Origin: a virus
Virus record (IMG/VR): IMGVR_UViG_3300029990_000324
Location: 1 to 42,214 of that record
Reading direction: 5' to 3' (one strand)
Length of the DNA stretch: 42,214 bases
Positions 15,991-41,550 of the stretch are shown one piece after another. Numbering within the stretch: the first letter of the stretch is position 1; every line of letters begins with the position of its first letter. The notes beneath the pieces are model-generated. The model searched no databases. It was not told the origin of the DNA and was given only the letters and a program-made list of their open reading frames with translations. The position numbers and the translations under genes were made by a program.

Positions 15991-16335
15991 ATGACGAATG
16001 AACAGCAGGCGCTGGCTGAAATGCCGATCTGGTTGGTGATCCTCTTGGCCTTGGTTGGTGGTGTTTCGGGTGAAATGTGGCGGGCCGATAAAGACGGCGC
16101 GCGCGGTTGGGCATTGTTGCGGCGCTTGGCTCTGCGGTCTGGTGCCTGCATCGTCTGCGGTGTGTCGGCAATGATGCTGATGATTGGAGCAGGCATGTCG
16201 GTCTGGACGGCAGGTGCGATTGGTTGCCTGACCGCGATGGCCGGCGCTGATGTGGCGATTGGGCTGTATGAGCGCTGGGTCGCGAAGCGGCTCGGTGTCA
16301 GCGAGGCTCCTGCCGATGTCCAGTCCGAACGATGA
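15991..16335 (+). CDS. Holin
   Basis: The 114-residue membrane protein would form lesions in the inner membrane that start lysis. Three hydrophobic helices are visible (about 12-27, 50-66, 70-90) with a charged loop GEMWRADKDGARGWALLRR between the first two. It is strikingly similar to the tailocin-relic holin at 40368-40715, including this loop. AAGGA precedes the ATG at a good distance. The gene stands upstream of terminase rather than beside the hydrolase and Rz genes at the end of the late operon, so the lysis genes are split. Confidence 0.85.
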   Translation: MTNEQQALAEMPIWLVILLALVGGVSGEMWRADKDGARGWALLRRLALRSGACIVCGVSAMMLMIGAGMSVWTAGAIGCLTAMAGADVAIGLYERWVAKRLGVSEAPADVQSER

Positions 16336-38875: not shown

Positions 38876-38932
38876 TTAGTACTCCAACACAATTGGCGTG
38901 TGGGAAGACAGATCGGAGATGGCTTTATTCAT
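38876..38932 (-). pseudogene. mutS': Displaced native mutS 5' end (18 codons)
   Basis: The minus strand reads [18 protein letters not shown] and stops. The first 13 residues equal MutS, encoded with GC-ending Pseudomonas-style codons (GCC, ATC, TCC, CTG). After the att core the frame enters phage DNA. This is the original mutS start, cut off by integration together with its promoter region to the right. The peptide is presumably without function. Confidence 0.85.
38892..38902. other. attR core candidate (ATTGGCGTGTG)
   Basis: This is the exact copy of the left core at 2519-2529. Phage DNA lies on its left, and bacterial mutS start and upstream DNA on its right. Confidence 0.7.
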
Positions 38933-39124
38933 CGGAAATTCAGGAAAACTCGTTGAAAGGTGTAGGGCAAAAGGAGGGGCATTGGCCCGGCTTTTCCGCG
39001 ATGGGCGCAAGATTACCATGGGCGGTCCGCCCGACGCAGGCATGAAAGCCCCACGGCACATTTACACTGAATATGCACGATTTATGCAAAACAGCATTTG
39101 TCTTCGGCGAAAAGAACAAGCACT
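38933..39124. promoter_or_regulatory. Original mutS upstream region / prtR promoter region
   Basis: This gene-free stretch should hold the old mutS promoter (leftward) and the prtR promoter (rightward). Near prtR it has ATGCA-containing elements (TATGCA at 39072, ATGC-AAAACA-GCAT at 39084-39097) resembling the palindromes at 39986-40025, so PrtR may autoregulate here. On the minus strand the bases before mutS' read as a peptide end FCPTPFNEFS-stop, reminiscent of the end of the phage integrase (FCPTLLNE). Confidence 0.45.
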
Positions 39125-39868
39125 ATGCGCGTTATGCAAAAACGCAACGTTTCTACTGTCTTAAGAGCACTGCTCGATCAGCACGGGATCTCCCCCACGG
39201 AGCTGCACCGTCGCACCGGCGTGCCTCAATCCACACTCTCGCGGATTCTCAGCGGGAAGATCGTCGACCCTTCGGATAAACACATCTCGAAGATCGCCGA
39301 GTACTTCGCCGTGAGCACCGATCAGTTGCGTGGCCGCGCCGATGTCGCGCCCGCCGCCCATGCCGCGCGCAATGAAGTGCATTCCGAACTCAAGGACATA
39401 AGTCTGTGGGACGACGATACGCCCGTCGATGACGACGAGGTGTCGGTTCCCTTTCTTCGCGAGGTTGAATTGGCTGCTGGATCAGGAAGATTCGTCATCG
39501 AAGAGAGCGAGCGCTCTAGCCTGCGCTTCGGCAAACGCAGCTTGCGTCACAACGGGGTGCAGTTCGACCAGGCAAAATGCGTGACGGTGCGCGGCAACAG
39601 CATGTTGCCGGTGCTGCGCGATGGCGCCACCGTTGGCGTGAACGCCGGCAAGTGCGGGATTGGCGACATCGTTGATGGCGACCTTTATGCGATCAACCAT
39701 AACGGCCAGTTGCGGGTAAAACAGCTGTATCGCCTGCCGACCGGCATTCGCCTGCGCAGCTTCAATCGTGATGAGCACCCGGACGAGGACTACACCTTCC
39801 AGGAAATCCAGGAAGAGCAGATTGTCATCCTCGGTCACGTCTTCTGGTGGGGCATGTACGCCCGTTAA
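39125..39868 (+). CDS. prtR: PrtR-like tailocin repressor (S24, self-cleaving)
   Basis: The 247-residue repressor has an N-terminal helix-turn-helix (TVLRALLDQHGISPTELHRRTGVPQSTLSRILSGK) and a LexA-like peptidase domain with cleavage site Ala118-Gly119 (LAAGSG), Ser159 (RGNSMLP) and Lys199 (LRVKQLY). In Pseudomonas PrtR keeps tailocin genes silent until RecA-stimulated cleavage. Start choice is uncertain among ATGs at 39125 and 39134 because no strong Shine-Dalgarno is seen. It is the regulator left over from a tailocin locus. Confidence 0.9.
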   Translation: MRVMQKRNVSTVLRALLDQHGISPTELHRRTGVPQSTLSRILSGKIVDPSDKHISKIAEYFAVSTDQLRGRADVAPAAHAARNEVHSELKDISLWDDDTPVDDDEVSVPFLREVELAAGSGRFVIEESERSSLRFGKRSLRHNGVQFDQAKCVTVRGNSMLPVLRDGATVGVNAGKCGIGDIVDGDLYAINHNGQLRVKQLYRLPTGIRLRSFNRDEHPDEDYTFQEIQEEQIVILGHVFWWGMYAR

Positions 39869-39885
39869 CCTCGTCACCTTCAGAT

Positions 39886-39913
39886 AAAACCCGCCATCGA
39901 GCGGGTTTTTTTT
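39886..39913 (+). terminator. Terminator of prtR
   Basis: AAAACCCGC-CATCGA-GCGGGTTTT with a long T-run stands 17 nt after the prtR stop. Confidence 0.88.
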
Positions 39914-40367
39914 CGCCTGTCGAAACCGGCTGAGCCTTTGTCCGTGGGGCTTCAATGCGGTGGTGCATTTTTAAATACGCAAATAAATGCATTGGTGCAT
40001 TGACTGTATATGCATCCATGCATATTCTTTGTCTCAAGCCGCTCAACAAAGCAGCTCGAAACGAAGTTCTTTAGTTCCACCACAAAGGCAGCGATGAACC
40101 GGCCTCAACGGTTCAGAGGGTTGGCAACTGACCCGGGTGTGCAGCGTAAAGCACCAGAAGCAGTTATCCGGCGGGCAGCGACCGCGGTCGGCGACACAAT
40201 ATGAATGGACTCGTACCGCGCCAGTAGCGCCGAAAGGTCAATGCAGGACCGCATTACTGAAAAGCCCGGAACGATGCCGGGCTTTTTGGAATGCCTACCT
40301 TCCATCAGGCACCTCAAGAAAACACTGTTTTAAAGAACCACTCATCAATCACTCCCGGAGGCGTGAC
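39914..40367 (+). promoter_or_regulatory. Control region ahead of the relic lysis genes
   Basis: There is no gene in about 450 bp. It holds two palindromes: AATGCA-TTGG-TGCATT (39986-40001) and ATATGCAT-CC-ATGCATAT (40008-40025), likely PrtR (or PrtN) binding sites. Later comes a strong intrinsic terminator AAAGCCCGG-AACGATG-CCGGGCTTTTT at 40261-40286 before the holin. Promoter, leader and terminator ahead of holin repeat the plan of the prophage late start at 15831-15957. No prtN gene is found here. Confidence 0.6.
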
Positions 40368-40715
40368 ATGACAAACGAGCAACTAGCGTTGCTGGACATG
40401 CCGATATGGCTCGTCATCGTCCTTGCCCTGGTGGGCGGGGTGTCCGGCGAAATGTGGCGCGCCGACAAGGACGGCGCTCGCGGCTGGTCACTGCTGCGAC
40501 GCCTGGCCTTGCGGTCCGGGGCCTGCATGGTCTGTGGGGTCTCGGCCATCATGCTGCTGTACGCCGCCGGTGTGTCGATCTGGGCGGCCTGCGCCTTTGG
40601 CTGCCTGACAGCAATGGCTGGGGCCGACGTGTCCATCGGGCTTTATGAGCGTTGGGCTGCGAAGCGCATGGACGTGTGCGATGTGCCCCCGCGTGACACC
40701 CATCAGGATCGTTGA
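40368..40715 (+). CDS. Tailocin holin
   Basis: The 115-residue holin has three membrane helices and the same GEMWRADKDGARGW loop as the prophage holin at 15991; the two are alike along nearly their full length. CGGAGG precedes the ATG at a good distance. In tailocin loci this holin is followed by tail genes; here an endolysin gene follows after 128 nt. Confidence 0.87.
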   Translation: MTNEQLALLDMPIWLVIVLALVGGVSGEMWRADKDGARGWSLLRRLALRSGACMVCGVSAIMLLYAAGVSIWAACAFGCLTAMAGADVSIGLYERWAAKRMDVCDVPPRDTHQDR

Positions 40716-40843
40716 AACTCAAGACCAATGGATTGGCGAGCAGTGGTGCCGACCGGCATCCGGCCTGCAAGGACGCAGGTCTCCCACGGCCAGTGCCGTT
40801 CATTCAAACCCACCATAAACGGTTTATTGACCGAGGACCTTTT

Positions 40844-41407
40844 ATGCCGCTAACCGATGGGCAACTGCTAAAAATCATGCCCAACGCCCGCGTCCAAGCG
40901 GGCGTTTTCATTTCTGCGCTCAATGCCGCCATGGCTCGTTTCAACATCAATACCCCGAAACGTATCGCCGTCTTTCTCGCTCAAGTCGGCCATGAGTCCG
41001 GGCAGTTGCAATACGTACGTGAACTCGGCAGTGAACAATATCTGAGCAAATACGACACCGGTGCCTTGGCTACTCGCTTGGGTAACACTCCTGCACAGGA
41101 TGGTGATGGTCAAAAGTACTGCGGCCGAGGCTTGATCCAGATCACTGGCCGCGATAACTATCGCCAATGCAGTCTTGGATTGTTCGGTGATGATCGCTTG
41201 CTGTTTATTCCGCAACTGTTGGAAAAACCTCAATGGGCCGCTGAATCCGCGGCCTGGTACTGGGCGCAGAACGGCCTTAACGAACTCGCCGATCACGACC
41301 AGTTCAACAGCATTACTCGTCGCATCAATGGTGGGCTGAACGGCCTGGAGGATCGTCTGCAACTCTGGGCGCGGGCGAGGGCGGTGCTATGCCAGTCTTC
41401 GGTCTGA
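40844..41407 (+). CDS. Tailocin endolysin (GH19 chitinase-like)
   Basis: The 187-residue enzyme belongs to glycoside hydrolase family 19 (lysozyme-type): FLAQVGHESGQLQYVRELGSEQYL contains the catalytic Glu residues, followed by KYCGRGLIQITGRDNYRQCS and WAAESAAWYWAQNGLNELAD. It cleaves peptidoglycan to release tailocin particles. GAGGA lies before the ATG at 40844; the longer frame to 40712 overlaps the holin stop and lacks support. It looks intact. Confidence 0.9.
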   Translation: MPLTDGQLLKIMPNARVQAGVFISALNAAMARFNINTPKRIAVFLAQVGHESGQLQYVRELGSEQYLSKYDTGALATRLGNTPAQDGDGQKYCGRGLIQITGRDNYRQCSLGLFGDDRLLFIPQLLEKPQWAAESAAWYWAQNGLNELADHDQFNSITRRINGGLNGLEDRLQLWARARAVLCQSSV

Positions 41408-41427
41408 TCTCTTGGCGGGTTATTGGC

Positions 41428-41550
41428 GGGACTTGACCCGGCGCATGCTCAACGATGGTCGCCATCACCGACACCGGGGACCGTGGACTGATTGCCTTGC
41501 AAGCTTGTCAGGCCTATATCAGAGCCCTTGCGCCCTCACATTTTGATTGA
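41428..41550 (+). pseudogene. Broken Rz/Rz1 remnant
   Basis: The DNA from GACTTGACCCGGCGCATGCTCAAC onward aligns with the end of the prophage Rz gene (38198-38297). In the Rz frame it reads MVAITDTGDRGLIALQACQAYIRAL, close to the functional IVAITGDGDQGLIALAACQAYVRAI, but an in-frame stop and loss of the 5' part leave no membrane anchor or coiled coil; the nested Rz1 frame is also shifted. It is the last trace of the tailocin lysis cassette. Confidence 0.8.

Follow-up and report, generated by a model that had tools for sequence, protein, structure and literature searches.

Recurrent reduction of the mutS-cinA tailocin locus of Pseudomonas to a putative SOS-controlled lysis cassette with a conserved leader RNA

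In the Pseudomonas fluorescens group, the interval between mutS and cinA is an established tailocin hotspot, whose loci are built of conserved blocks, prtR-hol forming one end and lys the opposite end (Mavrodi 2009 PMC2647930; Vacheron 2021 PMC7815802). The holin and endolysin of the homologous loci of Pf-5 killed or lysed Escherichia coli (PMC2647930). A reduction to prtR and holin was noticed previously in four phyllosphere Pseudomonas strains, in one sentence that gives no recurrence, selection or mechanism (De Vrieze 2020 PMC7204214).

Lysis by such genes is best known in Pseudomonas aeruginosa. Explosive lysis and the release of extracellular DNA in this species need the pyocin Lys, but not the pyocin structural genes (PMC4834629), and Hol contributes as well (PMC8131026). 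The holin and GH19 lysin involved belong to the pyocin locus, are under SOS control and lyse a sub-population of cells (PMC4834629, PMC8131026). The nearest analogue in logic to the locus described here is the Alp system of the same species (AlpR/AlpA/AlpBCDE), in which a repressor cleaved upon DNA damage controls holin-like lysis genes, and an intrinsic terminator between promoter and lysis genes has to be bypassed (PMC7969949).

We analyzed a window of 42,214 nucleotides (the whole stretch of DNA), which is an IMG/VR record of a prophage together with flanking host DNA. It carries, from left to right, mutS (complement), a prophage, prtR, a control region, a holin gene, a GH19 lysin gene, an Rz stub and cinA. 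The features of the cassette are as follows.

39072..39088, no strand assigned: candidate operator for PrtR, TATGCACGATTTATGCA, located upstream of its gene; in all related loci shown, prtR is likewise preceded by similar TATGCA repeats
39125..39868, + strand: prtR, autocleaving repressor of 247 aa with HTH and S24 domains (Pfam PF00717/PF01381; Peptidase_S24 E=1.4e-17, plus HTH_3), with AAG and Ser motifs
39886..39913, + strand: intrinsic terminator of prtR, AAAACCCGCCATCGAGCGGGTTTTTTTT
39985..40028, + strand: PrtR-type operators and late promoter TTGACT-17-TATTCT, with spacer ATATGCAT-CC-ATGCATAT
40078..40205, + strand: conserved structured leader RNA of about 128 nt with four stem-loops, supported by covariation (covariance model, 146 bits)
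40260..40287, + strand: intrinsic terminator between leader and holin, AAAAGCCCGGAACGATGCCGGGCTTTTT (fold z=-3.8 for 40200-40300)
40368..40715, + strand: holin of 115 aa (PF16085, E=1.9e-53)
40716..40843, + strand: deletion scar where the tail operon is absent and 128 bp are left; P. mucoides, 38D7 and P. arsenicoxydans E3 share this junction
40844..41407, + strand: GH19 endolysin of 187 aa (PF00182, E=3.5e-6; PHROG 181, E=6e-70), with solved relatives 9ms7 and 9eoi in the PDB
41408..41541, + strand: Rz remnant, 3' end only, seen as repeats D1/D3 against the prophage Rz; only residues 131-170 in L004
41622..42125, + strand: cinA (PF02464), right border of the locus

The site, PrtR, the promoter, the leader, the holin in first place and the GH19 lysin in last place are those of the R- and F-type mutS-cinA tailocins of the P. 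fluorescens group (PMC2647930; PMC7815802), but the window lacks any tail operon and its Rz is cut down to a stretch that corresponds to residues ~131-170 of the intact protein. A PrtR-type regulator and lysis genes stand at mutS-cinA as in a tailocin, whereas no tail tube, sheath or baseplate genes, by which R- and F-type tailocins are recognized, were found in the 128-bp gap between the holin and the lysin of the window. The reduction is of the same kind, and at the same site, as that of the phyllosphere loci, but the window also keeps the lysin and the leader RNA (De Vrieze 2020 PMC7204214). Unlike the P. aeruginosa lysis genes, which are still within the pyocin cluster, those of the window stand alone. 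The Alp system also differs: it is not derived from a tailocin at mutS-cinA, and it uses a protein antiterminator, AlpA, under AlpR, whereas in the window the corresponding element is a candidate cis RNA and PrtR would act on the lysis promoter itself. Neither an alpA antiterminator gene nor alpBCDE was found between prtR and cinA in the window.

An identical arrangement occurs in P. mucoides P154a, with 99.7% identity over 3.3 kb, so that neither chance nor an assembly artefact can account for it. Together with the Pfam and PHROG matches, this copy bears out the contents that a preliminary description of the window had listed: PrtR, a control region, a holin, a GH19 endolysin, a broken Rz and no tail genes. 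In P. mucoides P154a the prophage site is empty and the cassette is present, so the cassette is independent of the prophage; it is also the older of the two. The prophage is a separate element that sits in the 5' end of mutS, flanked by ATTGGCGTGTG att cores (2519-2529 and 38892-38902). It was previously called intact, which we could check in part: integrase, repressor, holin, contractile tail genes, endolysin and Rz are present. The insertion lies within the first codons of mutS, and the phage-borne mutS start (13 protein letters) has silent differences; since the prophage brings this start of its own, mutS stays open and its upstream region is now phage DNA.

It had been suggested that the cassette may speed phage lysis. 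Retention for the sake of the adjacent prophage, or of prophages generally, would fit with the fact that the prophage adjoins the cassette and also has an S24 repressor, and with the 75% DNA identity of the two holins. However, the cassette is present in P. mucoides, where the prophage site is empty, and the prophage itself encodes a holin, an endolysin and Rz. We therefore discard this role as the reason for the existence of the cassette and consider it very unlikely that the cassette is kept as a prophage accessory. The prophage holin (15991-16335) and the cassette holin belong to one family, the identity extending over 301 bp, and its gene lies well upstream of the prophage endolysin (37357), in an order resembling that of tailocins.

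To place the window among its relatives, we used a main set of 80 genome loci with the closest PrtR, of which 23 are reduced, a share that is therefore biased. Eight of these have the order prtR-hol-lys, two prtR-hol-remnant-lys and 13 prtR-hol only; in 55 loci no cinA is within reach. When 6-10 kb were read after the holin, tail proteins were present in 49 of these 55 loci and in none of the 23 reduced ones. Most related loci with a close PrtR thus still carry tail genes, and the comparison with related strains upholds the earlier proposal that the tail genes were deleted from a tailocin locus. What that proposal did not contain is the recurrence of the event. When the states are mapped on a tree of the mutS region, the tail-bearing one comes out as ancestral; parsimony requires 10 changes, and the reduced loci fall into 12 separate groups. 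Related strains have arrived at this stripped-down form about ten times. A second sample, an even draw of 59 genomes across the genus, included 35 with PrtR, holin and cinA on one contig, six of which are reduced (one being the centre genome), and its reduced loci include distant lineages.

Several observations were made on individual reduced loci and genomes. Two of the loci (L032:11481-12038 and L014, from ~11434) encode a secreted DUF642-type protein between prtR and the holin, after a Com-like gene. In a distant Pseudomonas (G065 contig C47, L104) with a prtR-hol-lys arrangement, the holin and the lysin are only 68% identical, the leader has diverged, and a second lysin copy is located ~4-5 kb away. 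PADLOC gave no defence-system-specific match. We also considered whether the cassette is kept for a contractile tailocin elsewhere in the genome, and rejected this, as 10 of 21 reduced genomes, which are drafts and were searched for the contractile type, have no sheath gene.

The window, L005 (P. mucoides P154a), L004 and L029 share a common holin-lysin junction, which indicates one deletion predating the split of these species. Because this scar is common to the clade, most of the selection recorded in the window's clade postdates the tail loss. By codon likelihood on window, L004 and L029, the holin has a dN/dS of 0.031 (p=1.6e-14 against 1), the lysin one of 0.153 (2.5e-12) and PrtR one of 0.074 (1.1e-18); strong purifying selection acts on all three in the reduced clade. 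For the holin, tail-bearing loci give an equal value (0.040), and the prtR-hol clade gives 0.26, which is higher, but still far from neutral (p=1.7e-9). No disabling mutation, which would speak against a lysis cassette, was evident in gene length: the holin is full length in 23 of 23 reduced loci and the lysin in 10 of 10. The intactness of PrtR was excluded from the evidence because the loci were selected by PrtR.

These values bear on the possibility, raised in the preliminary description, that the cassette is a decaying remnant on its way out. The truncation of Rz, the loss of lysin and leader in prtR-hol loci and the weaker holin constraint there are what decay would produce. Against it stand the dN/dS of 0.03-0.15 in the window clade, the difference from 1 even in the prtR-hol clade, the full-length holins and lysins, and the conservation of promoter and leader. 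Decay is thus rejected for the holin, lysin and PrtR, only Rz having decayed, and as an account of the whole cassette it is very unlikely. The truncated Rz serves as an internal control for the appearance of decay at the cassette. Loss of this spanin could slow lysis. In principle, gene conversion from tail-bearing loci could refresh the holin or lysin; in L004, however, the locus appears evenly diverged over its length.

The control elements are also preserved. When PrtR is aligned with other S24 repressors, its AAG cleavage motif and S24 serine fall in invariant columns, and the protein has the S24 features on which RecA-assisted cleavage depends. The promoter TTGACT-17-TATTCT is the sole sigma70-type match in the region, and its spacer carries the palindrome ATATGCATccATGCATAT, to which PrtR probably binds, judging from position and symmetry. 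The operator-promoter occurs within 1 mismatch in 54 of the 55 loci without nearby cinA and in 20 of the 23 reduced loci, and at <=3 mismatches it is a single site per genome in 12 of 14 reduced genomes, including P. mucoides. An autocleaving S24 repressor with its AG site and Ser, and an intact holin and endolysin under an operator-bearing promoter, are the components of an SOS lysis cassette; the SOS-type control proposed earlier is supported by the repressor and this promoter.

Purifying selection does not reveal the purpose of lysis, which may be public goods or the release of soluble bacteriocins. If the cassette were a shared release module for bacteriocins such as S-type pyocins or LlpA-like lectins, encoded in or outside the locus, its payload would be a toxin against competitors and not public goods. 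Pyocin_S domains are present in 19 of 21 reduced genomes (reduced genomes being those surveyed), LlpA-like B_lectin genes lie inside two tail-less mutS-cinA cassettes (L027:11433-12299 and L102:9701-10549, the latter, in G026, retaining a tail-terminator remnant), and the Q8r1-96 locus has a colicin M gene. However, two reduced genomes (G012 and G021) show no Pyocin_S and hol is still intact in them, G021 being also without sheath and GH19 lysin. Control by PrtR of other loci in P. mucoides was examined and rejected: the full operator-promoter occurs once in the genome at <=3 mismatches, and the four S-pyocin regions have no ATGCAT or convincing LexA box nearby, so shared PrtR control is unseen. 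We consider dedicated bacteriocin release unlikely.

The newest part of the finding is the leader RNA, which the preliminary description had missed. It lies between promoter and holin and is very conserved. In 20 sequences, including phages, its covariation is 0.303, compared with 0.172+-0.011 for shuffled alignments and at most 0.071 when slid; 12 of 27 pairs show compensatory double changes and 98.8% of cells are paired. The single-sequence fold is no more stable than shuffles (z=0.71), so the case for structure rests on covariation. A short peptide was considered instead, but all codon positions are conserved and the stems have compensatory changes, so an RNA is preferred. The leader had no match above gathering scores in Rfam, and no report of such an RNA in Pseudomonas was found in the literature searched; it is apparently unreported.

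The distribution of the leader follows that of the terminator at 40260-40287. In the main set, the leader is present in 68 of 68 sequences that have the lysin or lack nearby cinA (window included) and absent from 13 of 13 prtR-hol loci. The terminator occurs in 54 of 55 loci without nearby cinA, seven of nine prtR-hol-lys loci (window included), both remnant loci and none of the 13 prtR-hol loci. Leader and terminator are thus lost together in the holin-only loci and kept with lysin or tails; Fisher values for this distribution ignore shared ancestry and are indicative only. One locus (L029) has kept the leader and lost the terminator. In the even draw, every distant-cinA locus matched the leader, two prtR-hol loci (G017 and G071) are without it, and the divergent prtR-hol-lys locus of G065 gave a weak match in the right place. 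A further prtR-hol locus (G050) retains leader, terminator and Rz traces, a pattern expected for recent reduction.

The leader is also found in the lambdoid phages Orimi01, Aurca01, Medea1 and PseuP_224, adjoining the cI or repressor region, just after an operator-like promoter and before an early-left (pL-like) operon. It is unannotated in most records (L147-L150, L152-L155); a hypothetical ORF overlaps it in PseuP_224, as does a Com call in EU982300. Outside Pseudomonas, no copy was found with strict filters in 142 other genomes of the class. The put RNA of phage HK022 is a cis-acting antitermination RNA, and put and nut occur on both early operons. A structured leader near the promoter of a lambdoid operon is what is expected of a put-type RNA, and the short multi-stem form at the start of an early-left operon is shared with HK022 put, to which we liken it by position and structure, not sequence. 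However, it is single copy per phage: no second copy was found in any phage record with model R1, by which a diverged copy could be missed, so the presence on both early operons is not reproduced.

The simplest account of the leader, to which its position and co-distribution with the terminator point, would be cis-acting antitermination. Alternatively, it may act in trans as a small RNA whose 3' end is set by the 40260 terminator, or it may be a signal-sensing attenuator. Its ending in a strong intrinsic terminator, like a discrete small RNA, and the single copy per phage favor this possibility. By eye, however, the phage copies are not followed by such a terminator, and four prtR-hol-lys loci have a second terminator between hol and lys, which a simple small RNA would not help to pass. 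We regard this alternative as possible, but rather doubtful.

Under the antitermination account, DNA damage would activate RecA and lead to self-cleavage of PrtR, upon which the promoter at 40000-40028 would fire. The leader RNA would fold on the nascent transcript and allow RNA polymerase to pass the 40260-40287 terminator in the fashion of HK022 put RNA. The holin would then open the inner membrane, the GH19 lysin would degrade the wall, and a fraction of cells would burst. The benefit to kin would be the released contents, i.e., extracellular DNA, vesicles and soluble bacteriocins without an exporter.

The data provide evidence for a real, recurrent and selected reduction of the tailocin locus to a lysis switch. 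With sensor and lysis genes intact under selection and the same state reached about ten times, the cassette appears to be a functional self-lysis switch rather than junk; the altruistic lysis switch, one of the options first put forward, is the leading reading of the sequence. On balance, we think it probable that the window carries a selected, SOS-controlled, stand-alone lysis cassette derived from a tailocin locus, with lysis as its likely output and a put-like antitermination leader as its likely gate. The broader proposal, that Pseudomonas repeatedly made tailocin loci into selected SOS self-lysis switches whose read-through is under a new put-like antitermination RNA shared with lambdoid pL operons, is offered more tentatively, as a serious possibility.

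The reduced loci represent a natural separation of the lysis half of a tailocin from its weapon half. If tails are lost repeatedly and selection continues to maintain the sensor, holin and lysin, controlled self-lysis must be of benefit in its own right. This is relevant to the question why bacteria keep SOS suicide programs, and the reduced strains are clean natural lysis-only genotypes for measuring this payoff. If the leader is an antitermination element, it would be a new class of regulatory RNA in Pseudomonas phages and tailocins, and it would account for the transcription of long tailocin operons past their internal terminators.
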